A stretch of DNA of 18,565 nucleotides from Lachnospiraceae bacterium. Its GTDB lineage: Bacteria > Bacillota_A > Clostridia > Lachnospirales > Lachnospiraceae. Position numbers and translations under genes: made by a program. Positions within the stretch are counted from its first letter, which is position 1. The number at the start of each line of letters is the position of its first letter. Below, one piece after another: positions 571 through 14,874 of the stretch. The notes beneath the pieces are model-generated. The model made no database searches, was not told where the DNA came from, and saw only the letters and a program-made list of their open reading frames with translations. The stretch spans positions 7,210 through 25,774 of the forward strand of contig JAQUUB010000060.1 of NCBI GenBank assembly GCA_028694115.1, written 5' to 3'.

Positions 571-1600
571 GAATATCACCACCTTCGTCTTCTATTAAAA
601 ATCTGTCAAAATCACTCTCAAACAACTGATCCTGTTTAATCCTATATTTTTCAAATTCAGCTTCTGCATGTTGTTTCGCTATCTCTGCCGAAATAGTTCC
701 TGCATTTGTAAGAATTTCTTTTTGCGTTAGTCGAAGCATTCCTTCAAATTGTTTTCCCCAATCCTCCATTGTCATAGGAATTTGCTCTTCGGCTTTCATT
801 TCAGCCAAATCCAAGTAGGCATTCACAATTCTGGACATTGCTGTTAATTCTTTTTCTGACAAATAATTCTTTGCAACCACAACATCGAATTTCTGTATTT
901 TTCCATCTGGTGCATCTTTCCATGTAGTGAGTCCCATATTTTCTTTTTCACTATTTGCTCGATGATAGATTACTTCTGCTGCAGTTTCTCCATGAATTGC
1001 CCAATGAAGCTGATTTTGTACTTTCGCAAAAAAGGCTTTAGTCAAATTTGCTTTCGGATCATAATCTATACTGGTAGCATAAATATCCGTAATCTTTTGA
1101 TAAAATCTTCTCTCTGATAAACGGATTTCACGAATTCTCTGTAACTGTTCTTCAAAATAGTCTTTTGTAAGTATAGTTCCACCATTTTTTAATCGCTCAT
1201 CATCCATTGCAAATCCTTTGATTGTGTATTCTTCAATCACATCATTTGCCCATTTTCGAAACTGCACTGCTCTCGGAGAATCAACTTTGTTTCCTACTGC
1301 AATAATCGCTTTCAAATTGTAATGTTGTGCATTATATGGCTTACCATCACTGGCAGTTATTCGAAAAATTCGAATAACTGAATTCTTATCTAGTTCACCT
1401 GATTTGAACGCTTTTTGTAAATGATAATTAATTGTATTCACCTTTACATCATAAAGAATTCCCATCATTTTCTGTGTAAGCCAGACATTTTCATCTGCAT
1501 AGATAGCATTTACATCACTTTGTCCTGTAGCCGTTAAAAATGTTAAATATTCGGCAGCTGAAGAGCGAACTATGGAGACCTCATTCTTTTTCTTTGCCAT
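563..1600 (-). CDS. rhuM: RhuM family protein (Virulence_RhuM), embedded in the type I RM operon
   Basis: A 345-residue protein of the RhuM family, named after a Salmonella pathogenicity island gene; its biochemical role is not established. Recognisable features are the N-terminal KilA-N/Bro-like DNA-binding-type region (NVWLTQKMMGILYDVKVNT, about residues 38-57), the IRIFRITASDGKPYNAQHYN block near residue 77-96, AVGNKVDSPRAVQFRKWA near 101-118, and the downstream block with FAKVQNQLHWAIHGETAAEV. Length fits the family. The ATG at 1600 lies 2 bases after the hsdM stop, with AGGTGTAAGG as ribosome site inside the end of hsdM; its own end overlaps hsdS. Such insertion between hsdM and hsdS is a common arrangement in Firmicutes and Bacteroidetes, suggesting an accessory or regulatory role with the RM system. 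That role is inference. Confidence 0.9.
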   Translation of the reverse strand: MAKKKNEVSIVRSSAAEYLTFLTATGQSDVNAIYADENVWLTQKMMGILYDVKVNTINYHLQKAFKSGELDKNSVIRIFRITASDGKPYNAQHYNLKAIIAVGNKVDSPRAVQFRKWANDVIEEYTIKGFAMDDERLKNGGTILTKDYFEEQLQRIREIRLSERRFYQKITDIYATSIDYDPKANLTKAFFAKVQNQLHWAIHGETAAEVIYHRANSEKENMGLTTWKDAPDGKIQKFDVVVAKNYLSEKELTAMSRIVNAYLDLAEMKAEEQIPMTMEDWGKQFEGMLRLTQKEILTNAGTISAEIAKQHAEAEFEKYRIKQDQLFESDFDRFLIEDEGGDILE

Positions 1601-1602
1601 CC

Positions 1603-3165: not shown

Positions 3166-3237
3166 TTTACTAATCCTCCAATTAAAGTTTGTTATTTTAG
3201 TCTACCACATCTATCTGTCCCTTTTTCAGGACTTACA

Positions 3238-3501
3238 CTACTTAAGCGACAACTTTTTTAATACTTCATATCCTTTAACGGTAACAATATACCGCCCTTT
3301 TGCATGAAGCATTTCAACATATCCATCGTCAATTAATTCCTTCAAAATCTGATTTACCTTAAGTTTTCCACAAGGCACCAGATTGGCTATTTCTTGCTGA
3401 TTCAATGGGCAAATGCTCTTTCCATCGATTTGTAACTGATTATCCCTCAGAATTACTAATACCTTTGTTTTCTCATTTACAAAGCCAAGTATTTCATTCA
3501 T
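3238..3501 (-). CDS. Small winged-helix DNA-binding protein, likely regulator of the RM operon
   Basis: An 87-residue winged helix-turn-helix protein. Residues about 30-85 form the fold: PLNQQEIANLVPCGKLKVNQ reads as helix-turn-helix, ILKELIDDGYVEML as the end of the recognition helix plus wing start, and GRYIVTVKGYEVLKKL as the wing and last helix. It looks MarR/replication-terminator-like in general shape, but I cannot name the exact family. A GAGG ribosome site precedes the ATG at 3501. The gene is first in the run to hsdM and sits directly after a promoter overlapped by a 9-bp inverted repeat. A short controller protein upstream of the methylase commonly delays restriction after entry into a new host. 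The regulatory role here is inferred from size, fold and position. Confidence 0.8.
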   Translation of the reverse strand: MNEILGFVNEKTKVLVILRDNQLQIDGKSICPLNQQEIANLVPCGKLKVNQILKELIDDGYVEMLHAKGRYIVTVKGYEVLKKLSLK

Positions 3502-3534
3502 ATTCTAATCCTCATTATCTAAAAATTATTTTTT

Positions 3535-3557
3535 AATGGTTTTGTTTTAAAACCATT
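3535..3557. promoter_or_regulatory. Perfect 9-bp inverted repeat overlapping the RM promoter (candidate operator)
   Basis: AATGGTTTT (3535-3543) and AAAACCATT (3549-3557) form perfect arms around a 5-base centre. The right arm overlaps the -10 box by three bases and the repeat covers the expected transcription start. This is the position expected for an autorepressor site, possibly bound by the neighbouring winged-helix protein. It could instead form a weak 5' leader hairpin. Confidence 0.6.
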
Positions 3558-3583
3558 TTATCATAATTACTTTTGCAAAACAA
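3555..3583 (-). promoter_or_regulatory. Extended -10 promoter for the RM operon
   Basis: On the minus strand, TTGTTT (3583-3578) and TAAAAT (3560-3555) are separated by exactly 17 bases, and TGA directly precedes the -10 box, making it an extended -10 element. It lies 54 bases upstream of the winged-helix gene start and is the best promoter in this gap. Confidence 0.65.
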
Positions 3584-3721
3584 ACGATTTTCGAAATAAA
3601 ACAACATAATTTTTGTAAAGTGAAAAAGTAAAAGTAAATCTCCCGGGTGCGGAATTTACTACTGCACATAGTTTTTTATGTGATTCCTAAAAAAGAGACG
3701 ACTTATTAAAATTTTGCATTT

Positions 3722-3746
3722 AAAAAAGAAGGTATTTCTACCTTCT
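3722..3746 (-). terminator. Intrinsic terminator after the membrane-protein gene
   Basis: On the minus strand AGAAGGTA, loop GAAA, TACCTTCT forms a perfect 8-bp stem with a stable GNRA loop, followed by TTTTTT. It isolates the upstream membrane-protein gene from the RM operon promoter. Confidence 0.85.
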
Positions 3747-3747
3747 A

Positions 3748-3852
3748 TCAACACCAATTATAAATATAAGATATGGCACCGCTTGAACCCCCTATTTTCT
3801 CGAATCCCCAAGCGGTATCAATGCTTAAAAGTTTTGGGTACCTACTCATCAT
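3748..3852 (-). other. Short reading frame and long-loop inverted repeat downstream of the membrane-protein gene
   Basis: A 34-codon frame starts at ATG 3852, preceded by AAAGG and overlapping the end of the upstream gene by 11 bases, and ends two bases before the terminator stem. It contains the peptide TAWGFEKIGGSSGAISYI. The same DNA has perfect 8-bp arms ACCGCTTG/CAAGCGGT about 23 bases apart, unusually GC-rich for this gap. It could be a tiny coupled gene, a 3' RNA structure or a recombination site. I do not recognise it with certainty. Confidence 0.35.
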
Positions 3853-4423
3853 CCTTTATTTCATGATTAGTAAAATAGTCCTTATAAATTTCTTTCTTAA
3901 AAATCAATTTTTTCTCTTTGTTCTTCTCATTTGTATATTTTAGAATGACTCTATCTGTTCTCTGTAAGAAAGCCAAATCATCGTGAGCAGATTTCTTTGT
4001 TCTCCAGACACATCCATGGAAATTAACATTTAAAACAGTCTTTGCTGGAACATTTATTACTGAAGCATCATCACAGAATGCCATATGTCCATCTGATCTC
4101 CGTGTTGAATCATCCTTGGGAACATTAACTAACAGTTGTTTCTTTTTATCAGCAAATTCAATCTGGATATTACGCATGATCTTAGTATCACGACTACTAT
4201 TGTATAAATCCAGTGAAACCTTATAACCGTAGTACTCTGTCTCTTCAAATGAGTGGCTTGCAGTCATAACCCCAGCCTTATTATACTGTAGTTTATCTTC
4301 CCATTCTTTTATGAAGATACTTACCTTACCCTTCTGAGATAGATTATTTAAAAACCAGCCCAAAACTGTACCTCCTAGAGTACCAGCAATACCTATAGTT
4401 GCAATAATAATTTCATTATCCAA
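3842..4423 (-). CDS. Small protein with one N-terminal membrane helix, unknown function
   Basis: I choose the TTG at 4423 as start because GGGGGAGG lies 7 bases before it; the upstream ATG at 4447 has no ribosome site and would place the Shine-Dalgarno inside the gene. The product is then 193 residues. The first 25 residues form a single membrane segment (IIIATIGIAGTLGGTVLGWF), followed by NNLSQKGKVSIFI and a mostly beta domain that could lie in the cytoplasm. The motif DLYNSSRDTKIMRNIQIEFA suggests an immunoglobulin-like or similar beta fold. No catalytic motif is visible. Similar one-helix proteins with the GWFLN..SQKGK pattern occur as hypothetical proteins in Firmicutes mobile regions. 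It stands alone between a repeat cluster and a terminator, so it may be a single-gene cassette. A role in defence is only guilt by association. Confidence 0.72.
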   Translation of the reverse strand: MDNEIIIATIGIAGTLGGTVLGWFLNNLSQKGKVSIFIKEWEDKLQYNKAGVMTASHSFEETEYYGYKVSLDLYNSSRDTKIMRNIQIEFADKKKQLLVNVPKDDSTRRSDGHMAFCDDASVINVPAKTVLNVNFHGCVWRTKKSAHDDLAFLQRTDRVILKYTNEKNKEKKLIFKKEIYKDYFTNHEIKDDE

Positions 4424-4542
4424 CGAAGATCCTCCCCCAAATGTCATATTGAGCCATTTCTGATAAAAACGTGTATTAGGTGTAGTAGAACCTTTTCAAA
4501 GCCAAAAAACCTTTATATACTGCGTTTGAAAGATTTCTTCGA

Positions 4543-4578
4543 CATAATGCCTTGGTCGACAAAAAGTATTTTTATGAT
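4543..4578 (-). repeat. Degenerate copy of the LMW-PTP start sequence (copy A)
   Basis: Read on the minus strand from 4578 the codons give IIKILFVDQGIM, aligned residue by residue with MIKILFVCHGNI of copy B: IKILFV and G are identical, the start codon is ATC and the catalytic Cys and His are lost. ATAAAAATACTTTT is shared at the DNA level, and an AAGGA-ATA block lies upstream in both. It is a relic and not a gene. Confidence 0.6.
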
Positions 4579-4622
4579 ACTCTTTTGTATTTCCTTATTT
4601 CTCGTTTATGATTATTTTAATA

Positions 4623-4839
4623 TTATTTATTCAAGCAATTCATAATAACACTTACCATCATTTCTTTTTCTTCTGGCTTTGATTCAGCAATCATAATTGC
4701 ACAACCAACCTCCTGCACAATTTTACTTAATTGCGCATAGCTGTTCTCAAGTATCTCAAATCCCTTTATTATTTATTATTACATTTTCAGGTAACATCCA
4801 CCATTCGGTATAAAAAAGGTGTAAATTCAGTCTTTTCAT
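4623..4839 (-). pseudogene. Small gene split by a one-base frameshift, unknown product
   Basis: An ATG at 4839 opens a 27-codon frame (MKRLNLHLFYTEWWMLPENV...) that stops at TGA 4756. A second frame overlapping its end runs to TAA at 4623 and reads GFEILENSYAQLSKIVQEVG, then AIMIAESKPEEKEMMVSVIM and NCLNK. Removing one A from the AAA before GGG (near 4767) would fuse both into one protein of about 72 residues with a charged helical C-terminal half. That half looks like genuine coding sequence. The start overlaps the AAATTTACACC part of the repeat family seen in other gaps. The product is not recognised. A sequencing error or programmed slippage at AAAGGG are alternatives to a dead gene. Confidence 0.45.
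4812..4832. repeat. Divergent copy of the GTTGTAAA-type intergenic repeat (near copy B)
   Basis: AAAAAGGTGTAAATTCAGTC lies 57-77 bases from the GCCGTGGCA of copy B, in the same order and orientation as AAAAGTTGTAAA lies relative to the GCCGTGGCA of copy C and the CCGTGGCA of copy D. Confidence 0.4.
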
Positions 4840-4882
4840 CGCCACAAACCCAGTATTTATGCGGTTTTCCTCACTCGTCTTG

Positions 4883-4918
4883 GATGTTGCCGTGGCAAAC
4901 GAAAAGTATTTTTATCAT
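4883..4918 (-). pseudogene. 5' fragment of a low-molecular-weight protein tyrosine phosphatase gene (copy B)
   Basis: ATG at 4918 with AAGGAG 10 bases upstream opens MIKILFVCHGNI, then the frame reads QDE and stops. LMW-PTPs begin with almost this sequence, followed by CRSPMAE, and the catalytic loop is CxxxxxR(S/T). Here homology stops after CHGNI, before the catalytic Arg and general acid. So only a ribosome site and the first 12 codons remain. This looks like a junction where foreign DNA joined the gene inside its phosphate-binding loop. Confidence 0.65.
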
Positions 4919-5050
4919 TGTTATCTATCTCCTTGGTTTGCCAAGAAATGCCCCGTTTTGCAAGGTTTTTTGGCATTATAGCATCCCTTTTGTTCGTCTG
5001 TCACTCATCTTGACAGAACGTAGCAAAATTTAGCAAGTTGTAACCACCTG

Positions 5051-5093
5051 TTAGTAGTAAAATTAGTAGTAAAACGAAAAGTCTTACTACTAA
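5051..5093. repeat. Tandem 12-bp repeats plus inverted copy downstream of the Nudix operon
   Basis: TTAGTAGTAAAA occurs twice in tandem (5051-5062, 5063-5074), followed by an inverted TTACTACTAA (5084-5093) that can pair with either copy over 10 bases. On the minus strand this is a hairpin followed by TTTTACTACT, so it may serve as a weak terminator for the Nudix genes. The AGTAGTAAAATTAGTAGTAA core closely resembles AGTTGTAAATTAGTTGTAA at 10607, which points instead to a recombination-site-like repeat. Confidence 0.65.
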
Positions 5094-5191
5094 GGATTTT
5101 TCAACTCATTATAACTTCTATAACATTTCATTCATTTTTAATAAGTGCTTAGCAAAACTTCAATATCCAACAAATATATACCGGTTTAAAG

Positions 5192-6229
5192 CTAAATTCC
5201 ATATCTACGTATATCTCGTTTTCTCATAAAAAACCAAGATATAGCATTACAGTTTCCAACTAATTGGTAAGTACTTGTATCTGTAAATTTATATTTTCGA
5301 GCCACCCCCCGTACTTTCCTATGTGGAACAGCATAAAGCCTTGTATTTTCATCTTTATTATCTTTTGCCTGCCTTATTGTTGCTCCCAACTCTTTAAAAC
5401 TTTTTTCAACCTTACCTTCTAGCAGTACAACAGGCTGATATTTCTGTTTAACAACGATAATATCTTTAATCACTAATTCAACTTCTAAGTTTAGTTCTTC
5501 CCTCACCTCTCGACATCCAGCATAAACAAAAGGGTTTTCTTCTTTCAAGTCTTCAATTGCAAGACTTCCAGTTGCGCTAACAGCAAATGTTCCCGAAGAT
5601 ATCGCATTTTTGTTCCCGCGTCTTACTATAAGAATCTTATCTTCCTTATCCCTCAAAACAATACTAATTGCTATTGCATTTGCAAACTCATCAACATTCA
5701 GTACCTCGTCAAACGTTTTTAACTTTCCATACCATGCTACTTTAGATTTAAGTCGATTTTCAAGTTTATTTCTCTCTCGAAATTCTTCATCAAAAATCAT
5801 ATGCCATAGCACATCCTTAAGTGATAATAACTTTGAACTGGCTGGTTTAAAAACAAGATTAGTTGTCAAGAAATCAAAATACTTAATTTCTTGCACATAA
5901 CAAGTATTATTCTTTATTTTTGTCAACCTTACCATATTTCCATTGAACAGTTTCTTTCCAGTCGAATGTGCTAATAATTGTTTTTGCTCATTTTCCTGGA
6001 ATATATTCTTAAATTGATTTTTTTCTACCTGAATTTTCACTTTGTCAAAATCTACATTTTCACATCGAAAGACTCTTTTCAAGGGCAAAATTGCCTTATT
6101 AAAAAACACCTCATTTCTTTTTAAATAAAGACTAATTAACGCAATGCACCATACTACCGCACCCGTTACAATTATTCCAATTACATCTGCTAACAGTTCC
6201 TTCAATATTTCGCAAAAATATGCTGCCAT
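5192..6229 (-). CDS. Membrane-anchored Nudix-domain protein
   Basis: A 345-residue protein with one N-terminal membrane helix (about 13-34, DVIGIIVTGAVVWCIALISL), a linker domain (about 60-180) and a C-terminal Nudix fold (about 185-310). The Nudix box is recognisable as GSLAIED... then REVREELNLEV at about 240-250, matching REUXEEXGU, but with about 10 extra residues between the glycine and the REUXEE part. Nudix enzymes hydrolyse nucleoside diphosphates linked to another group; the substrate here is unknown. ATG at 6229 has GGAGCGAAGG upstream and lies 26 bases after the preceding Nudix gene, so both are co-transcribed. The two share the linker pattern FN...VRL...I...YFDFL.TN as well as the Nudix domain, so they are diverged paralogues. 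The membrane anchor suggests the pair works at the cytoplasmic membrane, possibly on a signalling or cofactor nucleotide. That is inference. Confidence 0.8.
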   Translation of the reverse strand: MAAYFCEILKELLADVIGIIVTGAVVWCIALISLYLKRNEVFFNKAILPLKRVFRCENVDFDKVKIQVEKNQFKNIFQENEQKQLLAHSTGKKLFNGNMVRLTKIKNNTCYVQEIKYFDFLTTNLVFKPASSKLLSLKDVLWHMIFDEEFRERNKLENRLKSKVAWYGKLKTFDEVLNVDEFANAIAISIVLRDKEDKILIVRRGNKNAISSGTFAVSATGSLAIEDLKEENPFVYAGCREVREELNLEVELVIKDIIVVKQKYQPVVLLEGKVEKSFKELGATIRQAKDNKDENTRLYAVPHRKVRGVARKYKFTDTSTYQLVGNCNAISWFFMRKRDIRRYGI

Positions 6230-6255
6230 TCTATCCTTCGCTCCTATGTTACTAT

Positions 6256-7095
6256 TTATCCAATTACACTTCTCAAATGATACTCTACTGCTTCCGTGAA
6301 CTTTTCCTTACATAGAATTATCTCCAGTGTTTCTTTATTTGCAATAAACAATTTATCCACTTCATAAGTAAAATCTTTTGCCTCACTCATTCCATCTAAC
6401 AATTCAACAAATGTTCCTTCTACTTTTCCATTTATTATTACTATAGGCTGTAATTTATTTTCCCCTGCCACAATTGAACATATTTGAAGATTTTTACTAT
6501 TAACATCAACATTTAATTCTTCATGCAATTCTCTAATCACACAGTTTTTCAGTGGTTCTGAACTATAATAATCAATTTCGTCAACAGCTCCTGTTGCTGT
6601 AACACTATACATTTTTTCACTTATTCCCGTTTTTCCACTTCTTTGTGTGAGCAAATAATCACCATTATCATCTGTGAGTAAAACACTTATTGCTAATGCA
6701 TTTGAAGAAATCCCTGTATGAACTAATGTTTCAAAATCCCTTGTTTGCATCATAACTTTGCAGTATTGCTTTAATTGTTCAATCTCACCACATACATTGT
6801 GATATATATCATTCCTTTTAAGATACTGAACAAAATCCTCCAATTGAACCGAAGTAATATTAATTGCTAAAAAATCAAAAAAATCTATTAATGACAATTT
6901 TATTTCTATCTTGTTGCCTTGAAGTTCTATATCTTCAAGTCTTACCACTCTATTATTAAAGTAGTTCACATTCTTATATATCGAAAATTCTTTTATAATC
7001 TTATCTCTCTCTGCCTTATTTATAGGCATCTTCAATGATGATTCTATTGTTTTATACACAATCTCTTTGGTTATGTCATACTTATATACAGCCAT
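6256..7095 (-). CDS. Soluble Nudix-domain protein, partner of the membrane-anchored paralogue
   Basis: About 279 residues from ATG 7095 (a GTG at 7107 is in frame, but its GGAG is directly adjacent, so ATG is more likely). The N-terminal half has the shared module VRLEDIELQGNKIEIKLSL then DFFDFLAINI; the C-terminal half from about residue 130 is a Nudix fold: ALAISVLLTDDNGDYLLTQR, SVTATGAVDEID, and the box end RELHEELNVDV (about 188-198). As in the paralogue, the Nudix box carries an insertion after the first glycine (DYYSSEPLKNCVI). It lacks a membrane helix. It is the first gene after the promoter at 7155-7183. The retained Glu residues of the box suggest catalytic activity; substrate unknown. 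Two tandem paralogues, one soluble and one anchored, could form a heteromer. Confidence 0.8.
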   Translation of the reverse strand: MAVYKYDITKEIVYKTIESSLKMPINKAERDKIIKEFSIYKNVNYFNNRVVRLEDIELQGNKIEIKLSLIDFFDFLAINITSVQLEDFVQYLKRNDIYHNVCGEIEQLKQYCKVMMQTRDFETLVHTGISSNALAISVLLTDDNGDYLLTQRSGKTGISEKMYSVTATGAVDEIDYYSSEPLKNCVIRELHEELNVDVNSKNLQICSIVAGENKLQPIVIINGKVEGTFVELLDGMSEAKDFTYEVDKLFIANKETLEIILCKEKFTEAVEYHLRSVIG

Positions 7096-7154
7096 AATCT
7101 TCAACACTCCATTTTGTTTGCTTTGTACTATTATTATATGTTTCTATATCATAT

Positions 7155-7183
7155 ATTTTAACATAACACTCGTTTTTTCACAA
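7155..7183 (-). promoter_or_regulatory. Promoter of the Nudix gene pair
   Basis: TTGTGA (7183-7178), 17-base spacer, TAAAAT (7160-7155) with TGT before the -10 (extended -10). It sits immediately after the strong terminator at 7185-7215 and 60 bases before the Nudix start. Confidence 0.65.
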
Positions 7184-7184
7184 T

Positions 7185-7215
7185 CAAGAAAACGCCCCCG
7201 CCGAAGCCAGAGCGT
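7185..7215 (-). terminator. Strong intrinsic terminator with UUCG loop
   Basis: On the minus strand ACGCTCTGGC, TTCG, GCGGGGGCGT forms a 10-bp stem with two G-U pairs and one mismatch, closed by a UUCG tetraloop and followed by TTTTCTTG. Its GC content is much higher than its surroundings, consistent with being part of the imported remnant upstream. Confidence 0.8.
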
Positions 7216-7266
7216 CCTCAAATCCTCTATATCAAACCACCTTAAACATTTTCTGCGATACGGCCT

Positions 7267-7363
7267 TTACTTCGTTTTACTTCTCACTTCAGCCTGTGCC
7301 TTTCTAAATTCCTCCAACCGCTTCAATTCTTCTTCAGCATCATCAAAGCTGATATGTTGCCAT
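7267..7363 (-). pseudogene. Remnant of a small gene of an integrative element (frameshifted)
   Basis: ATG at 7363 overlaps the previous stop as TAATG and has GGAGG upstream, but the frame MATYQL stops at once. In the next frame ISFDDAEEELKRLEEFRKAQ continues to AEVRSKTK and a stop at 7267. The shift falls at CAGCTTTGAT; a small deletion would explain it. The strongly charged coiled-coil-like peptide, tight coupling and strong terminator fit the small accessory genes of conjugative elements. Exact family not certain. Confidence 0.5.
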
Positions 7364-7620
7364 TAAGTAATTACCTCCGTAAATGAGCAATCAGGTGAAA
7401 AATCTTCTCTTACATACAAGTAGTTGTCCAAAAAAAGAACTTACTTCCAGGTAATTATGCATATCATCCCCAAGAATGTCATAGACAGTCCAGCCATCAG
7501 AACTTCTACAAATCTTGTGGCCTATATCATATACCCCGCTTGTTTTTACATATTTTCACCATTGAATATAAAATAACCTTGTTTGAAATAGGCTTTATTT
7601 CCAATTCTGCAGGCGCTTAA
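7363..7620 (-). pseudogene. Decayed small gene upstream of the coupled remnant
   Basis: Coding-like peptides occur in different frames along one direction: AYFKQGYFIFNGENM (about 7600-7555), GHKICRSSDGWTVYDILGDD then MHNYLEV (about 7525-7445), and REDFSPDCSFTEVIT ending at TAA 7363-7365. At least two frameshifts and an in-frame stop break the gene. The last part is coupled to the next remnant by TAATG. It looks like a dead accessory gene of an integrative or conjugative element. It sits between the DUF2971 gene and the Nudix promoter and has no intact function. Confidence 0.5.
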
Positions 7621-7659
7621 AAATATACATAATGCCTCTTAAAGCTCTTCTCCTATAAT

Positions 7660-8931
7660 CTATGGAACATCTTCAGCATGTAATTCATAAGCACCACGAT
7701 CCACCTTCATTTGTCTTACTGGGATATTGCGCATTTTTGCTATATCAATAATTTTATCACGATTATCTTTATCAATGGCCGCGCCTAAATATATACACGA
7801 TATTTGGGGCATTCGCAGCTCTGTATCTTCTGACACCATGCTAAGAATACGCCATTCGTTCTCATATTCCCATGCCTTATCTTTTATTAATAATCCTCTC
7901 ATAAGTTCCACACATACTTCTTCTGTGTTCTTTACAGAATTTCCTATTGCAGCTTTCCACGGAATAAGCGGTCTGCTTTCAGAATAGAATACCGGTAAAG
8001 GTATTTTTGATAGAATTTCCTCTTCTGTTCCGCTAAAATCATATTCAATACAAAATCCTTTATGGCTATCCGCATAATGCGACCACATAAGCCTATTTTT
8101 ATAGTCTGTACATAGACATCCCACAAGAAAAAGATTTTTCACTTCATCTGCCAACTTATGACCCATGTCATCTATTAGCCTTTGTACATCTTCCACTGCT
8201 TCATTATGTTCAGGACATAATTTCTGGCTCAAAAGCATAGTAAGCCCTAACTCATCCGTATCTACCAAAACACCATTCACACGTGCATAATCTTTTAAAC
8301 TCACATTATCGTTGGAAAGTAATAGCATTCCTTCTGGCGATATTTTTTCCATCATTCGAGGTAACATATCTGCACAGATTCCTAATGATGGCTTAAATAC
8401 CTCATCAGAGAGTACTATTTGCATCAATTCCACAATAACAAATGCATTATTCTTCAAAAGTATTGCTATCTCTTCTTGTGTCTCTGCATTGTCATCATAA
8501 TTTGCAATAAAATTATTTAAAATATTGCTCGCTAATAGTTTTCTAATGACACGTTGTTCATCAACACTGCTTTCGTCTATTGACATTTTACCTTGTACAA
8601 CCCTAATGTACTTTTCTAAGATTTCACACACCTCATCAAATTCTGCTCCATACTTTGCTGCATATAAAGACTGAAATGTCACTCCAATATTACAATCAAA
8701 CGGATCATTAAACACATCTGCTTTCGAACAATGCAATGTCCCTTCACAAAGATTTTTAAGGGAATATCCCTCCTTATCAAACGAACGAAATTTATATAAT
8801 TTTCCTCCATTAGTATCCTTTAGCAGAAGTTTATGTAATTGCTGTTGTTGTATCTCCAAAGGCTGAACTTCTTGATATAACATTTTAATCATATCTTCTA
8901 CAACTCTTTTCTTTTCTTCAGAAGAAACCAT
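7660..8931 (-). CDS. DUF2971 family protein
   Basis: About 423 residues from ATG 8931, which has AGAGGTG 7 bases upstream (an in-frame GTG at 8940 would overlap that site). Typical DUF2971 signs are KLYKFRSFDKEGYSLKNLCE, then TLHCSKADVFNDPFDCNI in the N-terminal part, and in the C-terminal part CLCTDYKNRLMWSHYADSHK, GFCIEYDF, VFYSESRPLIPW and KDKAWEYENEWRIL. A long insert (about residues 95-265) separates the two halves. The biochemical role of DUF2971 is unknown; members are frequent in defence islands and near toxin-like genes. It follows the PIN-like gene with an 90-base gap, probably in the same transcript. The stop is followed by the decayed mobile-element genes with no clear terminator in between. 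Confidence 0.85.
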   Translation of the reverse strand: MVSSEEKKRVVEDMIKMLYQEVQPLEIQQQQLHKLLLKDTNGGKLYKFRSFDKEGYSLKNLCEGTLHCSKADVFNDPFDCNIGVTFQSLYAAKYGAEFDEVCEILEKYIRVVQGKMSIDESSVDEQRVIRKLLASNILNNFIANYDDNAETQEEIAILLKNNAFVIVELMQIVLSDEVFKPSLGICADMLPRMMEKISPEGMLLLSNDNVSLKDYARVNGVLVDTDELGLTMLLSQKLCPEHNEAVEDVQRLIDDMGHKLADEVKNLFLVGCLCTDYKNRLMWSHYADSHKGFCIEYDFSGTEEEILSKIPLPVFYSESRPLIPWKAAIGNSVKNTEEVCVELMRGLLIKDKAWEYENEWRILSMVSEDTELRMPQISCIYLGAAIDKDNRDKIIDIAKMRNIPVRQMKVDRGAYELHAEDVP

Positions 8932-9022
8932 TAATATCACCTCTTTAGTTATAAAATTGCATTCAAGTAATAAACAAGGTCTACTGCCGAAATGTTATTC
9001 TTATTTCAGACACTCTTTTTAA

Positions 9023-10069
9023 TCAACTATTACCAAGTATTTTAATAAGCTCATCTTTTTCTTCTCTAATCAAATTATCAAAATAAGCTTGTGACTCTTT
9101 CCCAAAATCCGGTTTAGTTCTATTTGCTTGTCTTTCCTCAATATAGTTGCATATCTTGTTATAATCTTTTTTTGAAAACGCCTCATATAACAATCCATTC
9201 ACCCCATTAGATCCATGCGTATTAATAAAAATGCGTTTTAGAAGAATATCATTTGTTGCAAACATAAATTCTTCGGAATATTCCTCATTGTTCCAATAAA
9301 GAGTACTCCAATTCGATAGATAACTAATGTCCCATGCTTGATTTTCACATCCTGAAACAATACGATCTATATCATTTGTATTTGCTCCTTTTGGTGCTTT
9401 AATATTAGCTTGTCCAGTAAATAATAATACCGCATAAGCTAAAGCATATTGGCATAATAAAAGATTATCGTATGTCCAGCTCAAAAAATCTATTATTTTA
9501 TCTACAGCCTTGATATCCTGCTTTCTGTATAAATTAACAATATGTAACATTGAAGCAACCATCATATAGTAATGATCACATCCGATTGAATAATCAACAG
9601 TAATATCTTTCGCAGTTGTTCCAGAAAAACTAATCGGTATTATCTCCGTTTCTTGCCCTTCTGCAATTTTCAACCAAGTTTGACCTGGATATGCTTCAAA
9701 AATTTCCAAGAATTTCTGTAATTCTTTCAATCCTTCCTCTTGGTTTTTTGTTTGAGTTGCCCTCTCTTGAACTGCAAGCCCTGCACTAATTGAAATATCA
9801 TTCATTTCTGTCCAAGACATGATCAATCCCAATATCTGTGACTCACCTTTATCTCTCATACTTCCTTTTTCACAGAAATTGAGCAATCCGCTCAAAACAT
9901 TGCGATCCACAAAAAGTATAACTGACTTTTTTGTTTTAATTTCAAAAAACTTCTTAATATCAATTTGTCCAAATGGAGCTATTTCTGGATGGAAGATTAT
10001 TTGTAGTTGTTGAATTGTACCCCAAATATAATTCATATCCTCGTCATCCAAAATCAAAAAACTATTCAC
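9023..10069 (-). CDS. Predicted PIN-like nuclease-fold protein, family not recognised
   Basis: The preferred start is GTG at 10069, 8 bases after GGAGG; an in-frame ATG at 10084 has no ribosome site. The product is 348 residues. The layout of acidic residues resembles a PIN-like RNase: a strand ending in ILFVDRNVLSGLLNF (Asp about 55), an acidic VQERA (Glu about 102), WDISYLSNW (Asp about 247) and, after a short gap, FMFATNDILLKRIF (Asp about 274), the last matching the T.D+.L strand that closes PIN active sites. About 140 residues of helical insert lie between. I infer the fold from these motifs only. If right, it may cut RNA as a toxin or abortive-infection effector. It is co-oriented with the DUF2971 gene downstream, which could be its partner. 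Confidence 0.6.
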   Translation of the reverse strand: MNSFLILDDEDMNYIWGTIQQLQIIFHPEIAPFGQIDIKKFFEIKTKKSVILFVDRNVLSGLLNFCEKGSMRDKGESQILGLIMSWTEMNDISISAGLAVQERATQTKNQEEGLKELQKFLEIFEAYPGQTWLKIAEGQETEIIPISFSGTTAKDITVDYSIGCDHYYMMVASMLHIVNLYRKQDIKAVDKIIDFLSWTYDNLLLCQYALAYAVLLFTGQANIKAPKGANTNDIDRIVSGCENQAWDISYLSNWSTLYWNNEEYSEEFMFATNDILLKRIFINTHGSNGVNGLLYEAFSKKDYNKICNYIEERQANRTKPDFGKESQAYFDNLIREEKDELIKILGNS

Positions 10070-10152
10070 TCTTTTATCCTCCATAGACTACGAATGCATA
10101 ATACTTTCTAGTCGGCTCAAAATACATCTAATCCGCCCAAGCGTATGACTCT

Positions 10153-10317
10153 TTATTTCATTTGTAACCCATTGCATTGTATAGCTAAACCGCTCCCTCT
10201 TAAAAGGTTTTCTGCGTAAATTACTTCTCCTTCAAAATAGCTTCTCCTGCCAGAGTATATTTCAAATTTTTTCATTCCATAAGTAAAGGTGTGATCCACG
10301 CCAGATGCTAACCCCAT
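10153..10317 (-). CDS. Possible short secreted or membrane peptide gene
   Basis: A 54-codon frame from ATG 10317 to TAA 10153. The frame stays open upstream to 10368 and there encodes NIIFFVLCLIMGLASG, a signal-peptide or membrane-like segment, without an ATG in front; a GTG lies inside this segment. The rest reads FEIYSGRRSYFEGEVIYAEN, then LLRGSGLAIQCNG. AAAAGGATGTGAGAGG upstream could be a ribosome site but its spacing to any normal start is poor. The frame lies between a good promoter (10458-10487) and the PIN-like gene. It may be a true small gene with an unusual start, or a degraded one. Confidence 0.35.
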   Translation of the reverse strand: MGLASGVDHTFTYGMKKFEIYSGRRSYFEGEVIYAENLLRGSGLAIQCNGLQMK

Positions 10318-10438
10318 TATTAAACATAGCACAAAAAAGATTATATTTTTATGCCTCTCACATCCTTTTCATAAATATAAGATTTCAAGCTTTACCTTAT
10401 TGCACCATTATATAACTTGGTAATCCGTATTTCAATTA

Positions 10439-10463
10439 TATAATGGAATGATTTTCCATTATA
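10439..10463. promoter_or_regulatory. Perfect 10-bp inverted repeat covering a -10 box (candidate operator)
   Basis: TATAATGGAA (10439-10448) and TTCCATTATA (10454-10463) are perfect arms around TGATT. The right arm contains the -10 box of the minus-strand promoter at 10458-10487, so a bound dimer would block transcription. The design parallels the RM promoter at 3535-3560. Confidence 0.55.
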
Positions 10464-10487
10464 ATGTAATCACTTAAACGCTTACAA
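10458..10487 (-). promoter_or_regulatory. Promoter upstream of the PIN-like/DUF2971 genes
   Basis: On the minus strand TTGTAA (10487-10482), 18-base spacer, TATAAT (10463-10458). It could drive the short reading frame, the PIN-like gene and the DUF2971 gene as one transcript. Confidence 0.55.
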
Positions 10488-10531
10488 TATTGGACTTCTT
10501 GTTTATAAACATTTTTCCTTCCAAATGAAAT

Positions 10532-10557
10532 AAGACTACTCATTGCCGTGTAGTCTT
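10532..10557 (-). terminator. Hairpin, probable terminator after the copy C repeat unit
   Basis: AAGACTAC and GTAGTCTT form a perfect 8-bp stem around a 10-base loop. On the minus strand it is followed only by TATTTCATTT, a weak T-run. It lies just downstream of a short frame ending in KIDYDDE, so it may end a former small gene or act as a structural part of the repeat unit. Confidence 0.5.
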
Positions 10558-10602
10558 TACTCATCATCATAATCAATTTTACATCGTATCAGAGCATCTT
10601 TC

Positions 10603-10698
10603 AAAAGTTGTAAATTAGTTGTAACTTTCATTAAACAATCAAGAAATCCTTATTTTATCAGCCTTTCCACCCATAAGTTGGTGTCCTGCCGTGGCAAG
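10603..10698. repeat. Intergenic repeat unit copy C
   Basis: The plus strand has AGTTGTAAATTAGTTGTAA (from 10607) and, about 65 bases later, TGCCGTGGCAAG (10687-10698). On the minus strand the unit runs TTGCCACGGCA, GGACACCAA, GTGGAAA, then ATGAAAGTTACAACTAATTT. A short frame NLQLLKDALIRCKIDYDDE follows. Copy B shares TTGCCACGGCA, ACA.CCAA and GTGAGGAAA in the same order; copy D shares TTTACAACTTTTGAA, GCT and GATA. The rest of the LMW-PTP start is not clearly preserved here. Confidence 0.55.
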
Positions 10699-10857
10699 CC
10701 GCCACCTATTAATCCATTTCTGTGACACAAAAAAAGATGAAATGATAACTTCTGCTACTGTATTGACTACTGTAACTATCCTTAATCAATCAGATTCTTC
10801 TCGCAACATCTAAATGCGACTTATCATCAAAATGATAAACTCCAATCATACAGAAGA

Positions 10858-11958
10858 TTAATCTTCAGGTAACAACAAATGATATGTTTCATTCGCATCT
10901 GGAGAAATATACTCAAATGCATTCGAAATGCCATCAGTTGTAAAACTTCTTATGACACAATCCTTTATATCATCCAAATGTTGAGGTTTATTCTTGTAGT
11001 AATAGTATACCAATCCCAAAATAACATGCTTCATATTCTCAGTAACGTTATTCAGCTGTACCTCGTCAAAATCCAAATAATTCTTTCCTCTATGAACAAT
11101 TGCATTTCGATATTTATAGAAGAAATAAATAGAATCTGCCAAAGAAGTTTTCCATTTCTTTTCCATATGTTCAAAAAGAAGGCACGCCGAACGAACAGAG
11201 ACTTTCTTTCTTTGATTATCCTCATCTTCGCCTAATAAAAGCGTTTCAAGTATTGTTGATATCGTAATAATTGAAATATTCATATTGGAGTAAATCATGA
11301 ATAGCTCATAATACAGTCTCAAAGCAGACTTTAACTTATTTCCGAATTCACTTTCTTCGTTAATCATACCATTTAGTGTACCAATAATGTCAATTAATTC
11401 ATCGTCAACTTCTATTTCTTCATCTTTAGACCAAAACAAATATCTTGTATCATAACTGTCACAAAGATCACCTCCATAGGCTCGGGTCAAATAGCTTTCG
11501 AAATCGTCACAAGTCATTTCATTTTTTCCCAGTTTAATACACCAATGAATATTATTAATATATCCATCATTCCAGAATCCTCTTAAATTCCAATTCTTTA
11601 CATGTGGGCTCTCATGCTTCCTATATCTTTCATTCATCATCTGAACACCCAGTGTTGAATATAGCGGATCAGAATAGAACTTTTTCTCCCTTTGTTCTTC
11701 AACCTGAATGCGGTATGCAAAATAAAGCATAGAAATAAAAACCTTTATATAATATGTTTCAATACTATTATTTCCCATTGAAGAATAAATAACCACTGTC
11801 TTACATTCTTCTATATCATATGGATTAATAAATTTATTTTGTATTTTCAAATACTCCGAATACGGGCAAAATATAAATTCAAATTCATACTCACCGTGTT
11901 TGGCAACAAATCTTATCTTGCTATCAATACGTAATCCGTTTATTTGTATACATTTCAT
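10858..11958 (-). CDS. HEPN-domain protein (Apea-like), predicted RNase
   Basis: About 366 residues from ATG 11958, which has GGGGTG 8 bases upstream; an in-frame GTG at 11973 lacks a ribosome site. The C-terminal third (about residues 205-320) is a HEPN four-helix domain: SALRLYYELFMIYSNMNIS, TISTILETLLLGED, KKVSVRSACLLFE, and then the catalytic Rx4H motif RNAIVH (about 284-289) in FFYKYRNAIVHRGKN. HEPN domains with Rx4-6H are metal-independent RNases in toxin, abortive-infection and CRISPR proteins, usually active as dimers. The N-terminal 200 residues look like a separate alpha/beta domain, perhaps a sensor, which I do not recognise. It is a single-gene transcription unit with its own promoter, flanked on both sides by repeat units. 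A defence role is inferred from fold and context. Confidence 0.78.
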   Translation of the reverse strand: MKCIQINGLRIDSKIRFVAKHGEYEFEFIFCPYSEYLKIQNKFINPYDIEECKTVVIYSSMGNNSIETYYIKVFISMLYFAYRIQVEEQREKKFYSDPLYSTLGVQMMNERYRKHESPHVKNWNLRGFWNDGYINNIHWCIKLGKNEMTCDDFESYLTRAYGGDLCDSYDTRYLFWSKDEEIEVDDELIDIIGTLNGMINEESEFGNKLKSALRLYYELFMIYSNMNISIITISTILETLLLGEDEDNQRKKVSVRSACLLFEHMEKKWKTSLADSIYFFYKYRNAIVHRGKNYLDFDEVQLNNVTENMKHVILGLVYYYYKNKPQHLDDIKDCVIRSFTTDGISNAFEYISPDANETYHLLLPED

Positions 11959-12028
11959 TTTAAGACACCCCACTCATATTTTATTAAATTCTCATAAAAG
12001 AATACCTTATTTTCTGAATATGGCCATG

Positions 12029-12057
12029 ATTCTAATTAATTTTCACAACTACTTCAA
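12029..12057 (-). promoter_or_regulatory. Promoter of the HEPN gene
   Basis: TTGAAG (12057-12052), 17-base spacer, TAGAAT (12034-12029) on the minus strand, about 70 bases before the ATG. It is the best match in this gap. Confidence 0.6.
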
Positions 12058-12175
12058 CCAGTTTTATAGTCATAATCTTCTAAATTACAATATCCTTAGG
12101 AAACTATTAGCATAGCTTTTGTCACATTAAGTATATCAGTTTTGTATATACGCCTTGCATATCTTCAATAAAATA

Positions 12176-12206
12176 GCAAAAAGGGAATGTACAAAATTGC
12201 ACATTC
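12176..12206 (-). terminator. Hairpin with T-run after copy D
   Basis: GAATGTGCA, loop ATTT, TGTACATTC on the minus strand gives a 9-bp stem with one G-U pair, followed by CCTTTTTGC. It occupies the same place relative to the TTTACAACTTTTGAA repeat as the hairpin at 10532-10557 does in copy C. It separates upstream transcription from the HEPN promoter. Confidence 0.65.
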
Positions 12207-12234
12207 TACTCATAATTTCATATCGTAGCTTCTT

Positions 12235-12256
12235 CAAAAGTTGTAAAACTGATGTT
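12235..12256. repeat. GTTGTAAA-type repeat in copy D
   Basis: CAAAAGTTGTAAAACTGATG is 60 bases from CCGTGGCAG (12295-12303), in the same order and orientation as in copy C. CAAAAGTTGTAAA is identical in both. Confidence 0.5.
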
Positions 12257-12448
12257 ATGCATTTTGAAAATACAGTTAATTCAAGGTTTCCGACTCCGTG
12301 GCAGATGAATAAAACTATTATCATACACTTTTATATCTCCTTATATGTCGGCTTTTCTTTATATTTCCTGCATTTCACAACTTTTCCTTCGTGACTTGCT
12401 TTTTCTTTATCTTTTCATAATTATGTAATTTTTGCATATTTCAGACAG

Positions 12449-12587: not shown

Positions 12588-13247
12588 CTATACCAACCCA
12601 CAATCCTTAAATATATTCTCGATTGCTTCCCATATTGCAAGCGACGGATTTTCCTTATAATATCGGTATCCCTTATATTGCTGTAACACGTAGCCACTTT
12701 CTTTATTTCGCTGTATAATTGCTTTTGCACGATTTACTGCATCAATAACATTTGACATTTGGAGTTTTCCAAGGCATCGCTTAAAATTTGACTCATGTTT
12801 GTATTCATGCATATTTTCAAAATGTTCATCGAACGCTCTATTCAATGGTGCAAGATAATTTTTTCTATGAGCAATGGTTCCATTACAATCAGCCTTATGT
12901 AAGATAATCCATAAATCAAAAGTCAGATTGCTATATCCAAATTGGTAAGAAATTTGTTTTCCCAGTCCTTTTGCCGCTTTCATGTTATCCATAGTCTCCA
13001 TAAACTGTTTTACATGAATTGGTTCATCACTTTCATAATCTGATATATGCCATACTTCTGTTTTTCTGGTTATCACCATTGACTTTGCTCTTTTTAATGG
13101 ACTTTTCTCCACCGGACAATCAAAAGATACCTTTATTTTTGATTCTTCTGTCTCATTAATTCTATCTTGTAGCCATTTCAGATACCAATGTTCTGTCTCA
13201 CCTTCTACACTAAAATAATATTTTTTTGTGCTTTTCATCTTTGCCAT
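12588..13247 (-). CDS. rloB: RloB family protein (TOPRIM-like; AbiL second component)
   Basis: A 219-residue RloB-like protein. The TOPRIM-type N-terminus has the glutamate motif in KYYFSVEGETEHWYLKWL (Glu 15, 17, 19), and the acidic strand WHISDYESDEP (Asp 70, Glu 72, Asp 74) takes the place of the usual DxD. Next come FGYSNLTFDLWIILH, KNYLAPLNRAFDE and a C-terminal helix ending in NPSLAIWEAIENIFKD, all typical of RloB. Length is normal. The ATG at 13247 is 3 bases after the stop of the ATPase gene, so the two are tightly coupled. RloB was first described beside type I RM genes in Campylobacter; the same pair is known as AbiL in lactococcal phage resistance. TOPRIM plus ATPase suggests an OLD-like nuclease complex. 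Activity in this copy is inferred. Confidence 0.88.
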   Translation of the reverse strand: MAKMKSTKKYYFSVEGETEHWYLKWLQDRINETEESKIKVSFDCPVEKSPLKRAKSMVITRKTEVWHISDYESDEPIHVKQFMETMDNMKAAKGLGKQISYQFGYSNLTFDLWIILHKADCNGTIAHRKNYLAPLNRAFDEHFENMHEYKHESNFKRCLGKLQMSNVIDAVNRAKAIIQRNKESGYVLQQYKGYRYYKENPSLAIWEAIENIFKDCGLV

Positions 13248-13250
13248 AGC

Positions 13251-14579
13251 TTACACCTCTCCTTCCGCCGCAATAATTTCCTCAAAGATTGGTGTAAAAT
13301 CAATATCCTTAATTGCACCATACTGACTAACGAAATAGTTCTTCATATAATCCTCGTGCATACGGACACCCTTATCTCCAGATGTTCCAAAATCAGAGAG
13401 TGCATACAGAGTACTATAATAACTGTCATCATTACGCTCTACAAACTTAATCTCATCTCTTCTGAATAGATTAGAGTTAAGAAATATCGGATTATGTGTA
13501 TTGAAGATTAACTGGGCATGGTGGATGTTAATATCATCATTATGAAAAATATTAATAATACTCATAAGTGCCATAGGATGAATCGAAGCATCAAACTCAT
13601 CTACAACCAATGTTCCACCTGTCAAAATTGCTCTGATGACTAATGGAAAAATATTAACAAAGCGGATAGTACCATAAGATTCAAATAATTCTGCCGCCAT
13701 TGCTGCCGCTTTACCATTATTCACATCTTTAAACAAGGAACATAACTTTGCTTCCGAATCTTCATCACCTACTACATATCCAACTGCATTAGAATTAATA
13801 CCAAACAGCCTAGCCGCCTTATCTGTTGTCTTTTCAACATATACTGCCTTTTTCTGTGGGTCTGCAAATCTTTTAATCAATTGCATAGAATCTGCACGGT
13901 AAATTATCATAAACTTATTCATAAACCAATCGGTAACTAATTTTGCAAAAGTTTGTGAAAATATAAGCTTAAATCCATTGGTCAGGAATAATTCTTCCTG
14001 ATTCAAACTATTCTTGGCTATTTCTACTAATCCATCTGCTTTCTTGTAAAGTGCGTCTGTTATATATGGTTTTATTTCTTTCAGATTCTCTACTGTCAGC
14101 TCATCACCTCTACAAAAAACAAGCTCTCCATTAACAGTCATTTCTTCTTTCAGTATTTTTCTCTGGTATTCACTATCAAGAAAAACTCCTAAATCTAAGG
14201 AAACGTTATATCCGATCCTAAGCCCGTTTTCTATGAATTCCACAGCAAATTCTACCGGTTGCGACTTTGTACATTTATTATTAGGAATAAGCTCCAATGC
14301 TGTTGACGCAGGATTTGGAGAGGATTTTTCCTCGGAATTTCTGATATTTCCAGTTAATACAATAGAACGGAATACATCCATTGCTCCAATAATATTTGTC
14401 TTGCCTGCAGCATTTGGTCCATAAATAATGGAAGATGATAGTCCCTTCCATACTTTTCCCTTTATTTTTTCTATACATAAACTATAATCAAGCCCCTTCT
14501 GCTTTGGCGCAGCAAGCATTGAAAATCTAACTTCTTCTATAAATGATTTATAGTTTTTTGTTTTAAATTCAAGTAACAT
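13251..14579 (-). CDS. rloA: RloA-like ABC/SMC-type ATPase (AbiL first component)
   Basis: A 442-residue ATP-binding protein of the AAA_15/AAA_21 type. It begins MLLEFKTKNYKSFIEEVRFS, the usual opening strand and FKSF motif. Walker A is GPNAAGKT at 54-61, a SYGTIRF motif (about 301-307) stands in for the ABC signature, Walker B is TLVVDEFD at 323-330, ASIHP follows, and the H-loop is FNTHNP at 359-364. All ATPase motifs are intact. An ABC-type head dimer would couple ATP binding to control of its TOPRIM partner RloB, encoded 3 bases downstream. GGAGG lies 8 bases before the ATG at 14579 and a near-consensus promoter lies 45 bases upstream. The pair is a self-contained phage-defence candidate. 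Confidence 0.9.
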   Translation of the reverse strand: MLLEFKTKNYKSFIEEVRFSMLAAPKQKGLDYSLCIEKIKGKVWKGLSSSIIYGPNAAGKTNIIGAMDVFRSIVLTGNIRNSEEKSSPNPASTALELIPNNKCTKSQPVEFAVEFIENGLRIGYNVSLDLGVFLDSEYQRKILKEEMTVNGELVFCRGDELTVENLKEIKPYITDALYKKADGLVEIAKNSLNQEELFLTNGFKLIFSQTFAKLVTDWFMNKFMIIYRADSMQLIKRFADPQKKAVYVEKTTDKAARLFGINSNAVGYVVGDEDSEAKLCSLFKDVNNGKAAAMAAELFESYGTIRFVNIFPLVIRAILTGGTLVVDEFDASIHPMALMSIINIFHNDDINIHHAQLIFNTHNPIFLNSNLFRRDEIKFVERNDDSYYSTLYALSDFGTSGDKGVRMHEDYMKNYFVSQYGAIKDIDFTPIFEEIIAAEGEV

Positions 14580-14827: not shown

Positions 14828-14874
14828 AAAAAACTAAAAGTCCAGCTATTTTACTTAGCTGAACCTTAGTTTTT
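14828..14874. terminator. Long bidirectional-looking terminator of the surface-protein gene
   Basis: On the minus strand AAAACTAAGGTTCAGCTA pairs with TAGCTGGACTTTTAGTTTT (about 15 paired bases with small mismatches), loop of 7, followed by TTTATAG. The opposite strand also has a T-run after the stem. It begins right at the stop codon of the large gene. Confidence 0.85.

Follow-up and report, generated by a model that had tools for sequence, protein, structure and literature searches.

Putative attachment sites in the start of a phosphatase gene mark a probable stack of mobile elements in a Lachnospiraceae genome

Four phosphatase-like starts among defense-like genes

Why fragments resembling the start of a low-molecular-weight protein tyrosine phosphatase (LMW-PTP, or PTP) gene should recur among defense-like genes is the question raised by an 18,565-nucleotide stretch of Lachnospiraceae bacterium DNA (GenBank assembly GCA_028694115.1, contig JAQUUB010000060.1, positions 7,210 to 25,774), the whole of which is called the window here. 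An earlier note on this DNA had placed three such starts on the minus strand, A (4918-4883), B (4578-4543), and D (12324-12295), together with a reduced copy, C, and had proposed that repeated site-specific insertion into the codons of the PTP phosphate-binding loop (P-loop) built the array. The coordinates were all confirmed, and the comparisons described below support the insertion model. We assign a probability of roughly 0.87 to the explanation, drawn from sequence comparison, that the four sites are old attachment (att) sites marking mobile elements that integrated one upon another.

When a 63-nt profile of 112 PTP starts, taken from sequences other than the window, was run against the window, A scored 50.1 bits (E 3.8e-15), D 21.7 bits (E 2.9e-6), and B 12.0 bits (E 0.003), all above the best of 200 dinucleotide-preserving shuffles (11.4 bits). 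Site C reached 2.7 bits, which is not significant on the PTP-start part alone and which favors the view that short AT-rich reading frames resemble a PTP start by chance. A 175-column profile of the left attachment site (attL), comprising the PTP start plus the DNA past the core and built from 73 non-intact starts with none from the window, picked out exactly the four reported sites, all on the minus strand: A at 4961-4807 (87.9 bits, E 7e-27), D at 12351-12222 (31.5 bits, E 1.4e-9), C at 10696-10594 (26.2 bits, E 6e-8), and B at 4609-4466 (22.7 bits, E 7e-7). No other window match exceeded 5.6 bits, and the highest score among 200 shuffles was 12.7 bits. Site C was accepted because the arm repeat past its core and the 175-column profile lift it above chance. 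The nucleotide profile search, which had been suggested beforehand as a check, thus placed all four copies above the best shuffle; chance resemblance is refuted by this full-profile search and is hardly conceivable as an explanation.

The crossover zone, the integrase, and the arm repeats

We compared 141 sites to locate the point at which their similarity ends. Pairs that are alike before the core hold an identity of ∼0.92-0.94 up to the core; over the next 70 nt, identity is 0.17-0.33 for pairs of an intact gene and a fragment, 0.35-0.59 for pairs of fragments, and 0.42-0.67 for pairs of intact genes, in which the PTP bodies are conserved. The reciprocal breakpoint was also observed, as 20 pairs that are unlike before the core and alike after it start agreeing at the core. 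These breakpoints indicate that the identity switches at TGCCACGGCAACAT, within the P-loop codons, in agreement with the claim that homology ends there and that each fragment is joined to different DNA. Three genomes (L024, L089, and L101) carry one element whose left end falls at the core (99.8% identity over 7.8 kb); its right end is common to L090 and L101, which are 97% identical across the final 4.1 kb before the core and differ internally. Junctions are present in related genomes at exactly the same point, and the absence of junctions that the earlier note had named as a refutation was thus not observed.

Loci that appear uninterrupted were found among relatives. When the flanks of the array in L082 (the native leader and the PTP body) were joined at the core, the product aligned without a break to L166 (78%) and L165 (77%), as well as to L168, L164, L176, and L177 (68-72%). 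The joined flanks of L166 aligned in the same way to L177, L164, L165, L176, and L168 (74-76%); L082 is the cleaner case because the L166 leader is itself repeated. The two loci lie in the same chromosomal neighborhood, with HolA (91% identical) on the upstream side and PTP plus the gene after it on the downstream side, but hold different units. As a separate observation, Enterocloster-like genomes contain ∼500-bp gene-free units made of a PTP leader and a stub, with shared sequence past the stub (L082:2713-3724; L176:7145-7645; L177, flipped, 9266-9764; and L168).

An integrase gene accompanies many intact PTP genes. In 15 of 37 sampled Lachnospiraceae genomes, a Tn916-type tyrosine integrase (full length in 10, broken in 5) ends 153-213 bp upstream of the intact PTP ATG; a further short match close to the PTP gene in L153 is doubtful and is not counted among the 15. 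The sample derives from 40 family regions that were hand-picked rather than random (from the places listed, one match each, plus-strand matches with enough upstream DNA), of which 37 have an intact PTP (L134, L138, and L145 have none) and two of the 37, L149 and L158, include less than 400 bp upstream. It is nevertheless the least biased frequency count, as the pattern scans were aimed at truncated starts and their counts are uninformative on frequency. The exact PTP-start pattern occurred in 251 of 397 evenly drawn family genomes and the reversed pattern in 1 of 397. Among viral contigs, 9 of 20 pattern loci had a truncated start, and a full-length integrase of one profile family lay just upstream in 8 of these 9 (none in L004). 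Genome contigs covering 84,980 species yielded 61 stretches that match the pattern of a start that does not run on into the usual Cys codon; by record title these are mostly Clostridia, with five titles naming other groups and five only "bacterium." A regular-expression search classed 48 of the 61 as truncated (L073 probably by chance) and 2 as intact variants (L033 and L042), and gave no match for 11. Both integrases of relatives that were tested contain PF02920, the Tn916 arm-binding domain, together with PF00589. The earlier note had suggested looking for an intact PTP at the island edge, strains with an empty site, and a nearby tyrosine or serine recombinase; an intact PTP at the array edge, uninterrupted loci, and a nearby tyrosine recombinase were found in relatives but not in the window itself.

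Many of the broken integrases keep their C-terminal part beside the att site (L091, L093, L095, L096, L100, L118, L141, L144, L147, L163, and L169); exceptions are L150, in which the C terminus is missing, and L087, L094, L140, and L170, which are longer or frame-broken. The retained stretch perhaps serves as a promoter region for the PTP gene.

The second half of the putative attachment site lies downstream of the core, where a 10-mer direct repeat with a period of 10-13 (nearly always 11) lies ∼50 nt past the core. At an identity of at least 9/10, this repeat was found in 42 of 67 non-intact sites, a few of which are probably chance pattern matches, and in 37 of the 42 it stands at an offset of 48-54. 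For comparison, intact PTP genes contained it in 2 of 43 cases, and random stretches in 30 of 720. The arm motif varies by family (TACTACACCA, TTTACACCTT, TTTATACCTT, TTTACTTCAA, and others). In the window, site C carries AAGTTACAAC/AATTTACAAC, with TTACAAC twice and a 9/10 match at period 11, and site A carries a 7/10 version, TTTACACC/TTTATACC; sites B and D each have one copy, recognizable by eye, at the expected distance, and each window site thus retains at least one arm-type motif ∼50 nt past the core. Copies of the arm also occur at the right end in all four elements of integrase cluster 0, and in the window, where left arms are found at C and A, a right-end repeat was noted by eye near 5051-5074. 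Together, core and arm sites have the look of an integrase attachment site.

The same evidence bears on a different explanation, in which the PTP 5′ region was duplicated in tandem and decayed, and defense genes landed between the copies by unrelated events. The leader repeats of the Enterocloster relatives L082, L176, and L177 fit such a history. In contrast, the DNA past most stubs is shared, arm-bearing sequence rather than PTP, different genomes hold identical elements whose ends coincide with the core, and the integrase stands at a narrow distance. We regard this explanation as very improbable. In its simple form, tandem duplication is contradicted by the reciprocal breakpoints at the core.

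Under the stacked-element explanation, Tn916-type tyrosine integrases of mobilizable elements and phages would recombine inside the LMW-PTP P-loop codons (TGC CAC GGC AAC AT), each element carrying near its integrase gene a PTP upstream region, a start codon, and about ten codons. One junction would then hold a complete PTP gene, composed of the 5′ end of the element and the old body, and the other a displaced stub followed by the arm repeats of the element. The PTP gene would survive, with the stub displaced, because the elements bring their own PTP start. Intact frames lie just past the integrase in 15 of the 37 genomes and the shared DNA changes at the core, consistent with a reading frame rebuilt by element DNA. 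The proposal that each event recreates a partial target is to be corrected: the fragments would be displaced older 5′ ends, and a complete PTP gene would also be rebuilt on the other side. Later elements would enter the rebuilt gene, such that the newest unit adjoins PTP and older ones are pushed outward and decay. Deletion of the integrase would leave cassettes of one to three genes with an att site at each end, resembling cis-mobilizable elements (CIMEs), and we infer that most of the cassettes arose by such decay. They would move by accretion and mobilization or through a related integrase acting in trans.

Several observations weigh against this explanation. The window has no intact PTP, and its integrase is limited to a remnant of ∼30 codons. 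Site D has a single arm copy, the arm of B is decayed, 25 of the 67 non-intact sites elsewhere are without a 9/10 repeat, and right-end arm copies were found in only 7 of 12 elements outside integrase cluster 0. Relatives used as uninterrupted loci mostly carry the ∼500-bp leader repeats upstream and for that reason are not wholly empty. Some integrases of the same profile family have no PTP site nearby: among four phage records, one has a clear site 167 bp past the integrase (L211), one a weak site (L210), and two none in the stretch examined (L208 and L209). The HEPN-like and NUDIX cargo of the window, described below, has no homologue in 397 family genomes, and the HEPN-like gene has no relative in viral contigs, results that give no sign of movement for the cassettes in the window. 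Finally, many units lacking an integrase may be dead remains.

Short cassettes in relatives and the content of the window

We delimited 57 att-to-att units in 95 regions of relatives, many of whose source genomes are fragmented. A full integrase is present in 18 units (median 10.8 kb) and an integrase remnant in 11 (median 6.5 kb); no integrase was detected in the other 28 (median 2.0 kb, range 0.2-13.6 kb), although small remnants may escape detection, and 22 of these 28 contain genes while 6 are gene-free. Genes of at least 100 aa share the orientation of PTP in 50 of 54 cases in integrase-less units below 8 kb, 37 of 39 in remnant units, and 112 of 143 in full-integrase units. In all six arrays that mix integrase-less units with full or remnant ones (L082, L092, L094, L097, L127, whose integrase-less unit is only 208 bp, and L175), a full or remnant unit adjoins PTP; three further arrays consist of integrase-less units only. 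Among the first 77 proteins of integrase-less and remnant units, the Pfam matches included DUF1016 (5), Fic (3), Abi_2 (2), and SIR2-type domains. Those among 66 of 84 full-integrase unit proteins, a set from which short or opposite-strand open reading frames were dropped, included MobA/MobL, Mob_Pre, RepA_N, and DNA methylases; the Pfam names are labels and predictions. PADLOC analysis of the integrase-less cargo yields families rather than protein counts, and no defense fraction is given. Two side observations concern the arrangement of sites: the order stub, cassette, intact PTP also occurs outside Lachnospiraceae (L108, a Sphaerochaetaceae metagenome-assembled genome, and L107, Holdemanella), and an extra att-like site of 64.5 bits, at L093:11597 (-), lies past the intact PTP and on the other strand.

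The shortness and co-orientation of the integrase-less units raise the possibility that they are functional cassettes, excising as circles and inserting at PTP in trans through related integrases, with the array serving largely as a bank of defense genes. Some integrase-less cassettes do retain both left arms, along with a copy, at the right end, of the same arm as in integrase cluster 0 (L082:3724 and L166:7140). On the other hand, full-integrase units are also co-oriented, if less strongly, and broken integrases (5 of the 15 beside PTP, and the 11 remnant units) point to decay in place. We consider this integron-like system possible, yet somewhat doubtful.

One integrase-less cassette is found in two genomes, G003 and G041. 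The ∼2.8-kb unit of G003 has genes for a DUF1016 protein and for proteins of 126 and 261 aa. Between its left and right PTP cores, it shares 98.6-99.4% identity with a unit of G041 that adjoins an intact PTP; the G041 copy is set apart by a difference of ∼170 bp and by an IS66-type insertion accompanied by an 8-bp repeat. The locus L105 (flipped, 3004-5793) has such an insertion, with an 8-bp target duplication, inside an integrase-less cassette. The G003 and G041 regions have no other match longer than 206 bp, the PTP bodies being 79% identical over 206 bp, and the neighbors of the cassette differ. Just upstream of the cassette, the G041 DNA is 94% identical over 174 bp to the right end of an element that in G003 is found on the downstream side of the cassette, and the two genomes thus differ in the order of their units. 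The five nearest DUF1016 genes (in G003, G300, and G289, at least 91%, and in G041 and G005) all follow a PTP att site, compared with 0 of the 27 more distant ones in that search within the short stretches examined. These facts fit circulation in trans, but accretion and mobilization together with a neighboring integrase-bearing element predicts the same pattern, and the G003/G041 cassette fits either. Other distant DUF1016 genes also sit at att sites (L096, L102, and L167), and hence the gene is not a single cassette lineage. The wider proposal, that the LMW-PTP 5′ end anchors an integron-like cassette economy in which short, co-oriented cassettes lacking an integrase, many of them with defense genes, circulate between species and are inserted and removed in trans by the Tn916-type integrases of resident phages and mobilizable elements, the P-loop codons of an enzyme gene being the common recombination site, is one that we put forward tentatively and hold to be less probable than its negation. 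A true integron was rejected, as the associated integrase is Tn916-type rather than IntI-type and no integron platform was seen.

In the window itself, the minus-strand order read leftward is RloA-RloB, site D, a 371-aa gene, site C, a 353-aa gene, a DUF2971 gene, the integrase end, a NUDIX pair, site A, and site B, beyond which are genes for a membrane protein and a small regulator and then a type I restriction-modification locus. The first of these, an RloB plus RloA/AbiLi-like pair (12588-14579, minus strand; PF13707, E 5e-16; PADLOC AbiLi, E 4e-68), is upstream of D, and the left end of its unit was not found. Site D (12222-12351, minus strand) comprises the MIIVLFICHG start at 12324-12295 with its ribosome-binding site, a crossover near CCACGG, and the single arm TTTACAAC at ∼12247-12240. 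The D-C unit of ∼1.65 kb has no integrase, and its one gene (10858-11973, minus strand; 371 aa) contains an RNAIVH (RX4H) motif and appears HEPN-like by eye; it has no Pfam or PADLOC match and 36 homologous proteins, including that of the window. Site C (10594-10696, minus strand) has the core TTGCCACGGCA and the arm repeat AAGTTACAACTAATTTACAAC at ∼10627-10607.

The C-A unit begins with the 353-aa gene (9023-10084, minus strand), which the earlier note had called PIN and which has no Pfam match; it has 199 homologous proteins, with one labeled Roseburia among the 120 listed. Next come a 426-aa DUF2971 protein (7660-8940, minus strand; PF11185, E 1.4e-12; PADLOC candidate PDC-S31, E 2.6e-46) and the integrase remnant (7155-7362, minus strand), in which the final ∼30 codons of a Tn916-type integrase (7362-7270) are followed by conserved DNA. 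The remnant scores 12.1 bits (E 0.07) with the integrase profile, and by blastn it is 75% identical to the integrase 3′ ends of L032 (198 nt, E 2.5e-23) and L045 (197 nt, E 1.7e-25). Past it are a 283-aa NUDIX gene (6256-7107, minus strand; PF00293, E 1.6e-6), a weakly NUDIX-like 345-aa gene (5192-6229, minus strand; weak NCBIfam isopentenyl-diphosphate isomerase matches, E 0.003-0.005), and the right-end region of the element (4962-5101, minus strand) with TTTTACTACTAATTTTACTACTAA at ∼5074-5051. This unit is homologous to the integrase-bearing L032 and L045 in two stretches, the integrase 3′ end (7155-7347) and the DNA before A; for the latter, window positions 4883-5101 are 78% identical to L032 and 4884-5096 are 76% identical to L045, upstream of their PTP starts. 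The DNA between the two stretches encodes a PIN7-domain protein and a membrane protein in L032 (1119-2783), an unrelated 494-aa protein in L045 (334-1818), and the NUDIX pair in the window (5192-7107). On these alignments, a second cargo slot of variable content lies there, with the integrase 3′ end on one side and the right att region on the other.

Site A (4807-4961, minus strand) has the start MIKILFVCHGNI at 4918-4883, the core CCACGGCA at ∼4895-4888, and its arms at ∼4827-4807. No gene was recognized in the A-B interval of ∼350 bp. Site B (4466-4609, minus strand) is decayed, with IIKILFVDQGIM at 4578-4543 and one arm, TACTACACC, at ∼4487-4479. Each of the D-C, C-A, and A-B units is bounded on both sides by profile-matched att sites, and they would represent, respectively, a one-gene cassette, a larger element with an integrase end only, and an empty micro-unit. 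The intact PTP, or the next site, is predicted to lie beyond the window, toward lower coordinates. Pfam matching of ten window proteins gave no transfer gene, and a comparison of the window cargo with a set of loci from relatives gave relatives of HsdM, HsdS, and RhuM only.

The first gene past B (3842-4447, minus strand) encodes a protein of 201 aa that, by eye, has a single hydrophobic stretch at its N terminus and that matches no family. Beyond it (1-3501, minus strand) are an 87-aa winged-helix regulator, whose matches are below the cut-off, and HsdM, RhuM, and HsdS, the last cut by the window edge (Pfam matches PF02384 and PF13310); HsdS is presumed from gene order and sequence. The RhuM-family gene stands between HsdM and HsdS in the type I locus (563-1600). 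Within HsdS (1-37, minus strand) are three copies of a 12-bp repeat reading TAEL, which we take to resemble the specificity-changing repeats of EcoR124-type enzymes, making specificity switching of HsdS possible by analogy. At the other end of the window, 14874-18563 encodes a repeat-rich, probably secreted protein of 1229 aa with the TIGR02543 repeat and no relative in the genome contigs.

Relation to known systems

In a dominant gut family, the PTP start seems to be an exactly defined and apparently frequent target of integration: 15 of the 37 sampled intact PTP genes lie beside a whole or broken integrase. Reading between att sites offers a simple way to find and delimit cassettes, some of them without a known family. 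Two questions also become testable: how small defense units that carry no mobility gene pass from one species to another, and why the elements settle on a site where they must themselves supply the start of a catalytic loop.

Integrons are arrays of short, mostly co-oriented, recombinase-less gene cassettes between recombination sites. The PTP cassettes have the same array layout; they differ in having a Tn916-type integrase and in that the sites consist of a gene 5′ end plus arm repeats.

The earlier note knew of no described system of this kind, a statement that does not stand, as precedents exist for other target genes (PMC7563491, PMC5704250, PMC3146451) and for dusA (PMC8409611). In Streptococcus salivarius, CIMEs of 1.2-13 kb without an integrase, gene-free microCIMEs, and tandem accretion have been described, the most decayed units being farthest from the target (PMC7563491), and composites of two or three elements occupy the 3′ ends of rpmG, rpsI, fda, and rplL (PMC7563491, PMC5704250). 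As in this accretion of integrative and conjugative elements (ICEs), integrative and mobilizable elements (IMEs), and CIMEs, att-bounded units are stacked in tandem at one target gene here; the differences are the LMW-PTP 5′ end as target, a mostly Lachnospiraceae distribution, the crossover in catalytic-loop codons, and some defense-like cargo. The 57 units in relatives and the D-C, C-A, and A-B units of the window have att bounds on both sides, as CIMEs do, and the window units show only the ∼30-codon integrase remnant and no transfer gene among their Pfam matches, in line with the 28 units elsewhere in which no integrase was detected; an autonomous element at the same site that could mobilize such units may be represented by integrase-bearing units in relatives, with none visible in the window.

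Elements at dusA likewise insert in the 5′ end of a conserved gene that is restored by the element, and phages and mobilizable elements share the site (PMC8409611). They differ from those at PTP in belonging to Proteobacteria and in their integrases and target gene; the same source notes a tandem pair (PMC8409611). At ssrA of Dehalococcoides, many tandem islands are bounded by target-gene-end repeats, and 15 without an integration module are possibly CIMEs; unlike the PTP units, they involve a serine recombinase, the 3′ end of the tmRNA gene, and reductive dehalogenase cargo (PMC3146451). With Tn916 the two PTP-associated integrases that were tested share PF02920 and PF00589, and arm sites in direct repeat were seen at both ends in the four elements of one integrase cluster and in 7 of 12 others. 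Insertion at many sites is described for Tn916 itself (PMC12084037), whereas the PTP-associated integrases use one site in a gene. Two further sources describe the use of sites other than LMW-PTP (PMC10072058, PMC10763512). We found no report of an LMW-PTP attachment site or of such cassette-like arrays in the open-license literature, which is not proof of absence. The kind of system is thus already known, both as tandem accretion of ICEs, IMEs, and CIMEs and as insertion into 5′-end targets such as dusA; what is new is how often it occurs in the sample, that the site falls within catalytic-loop codons, and that the cassettes are short and co-oriented.

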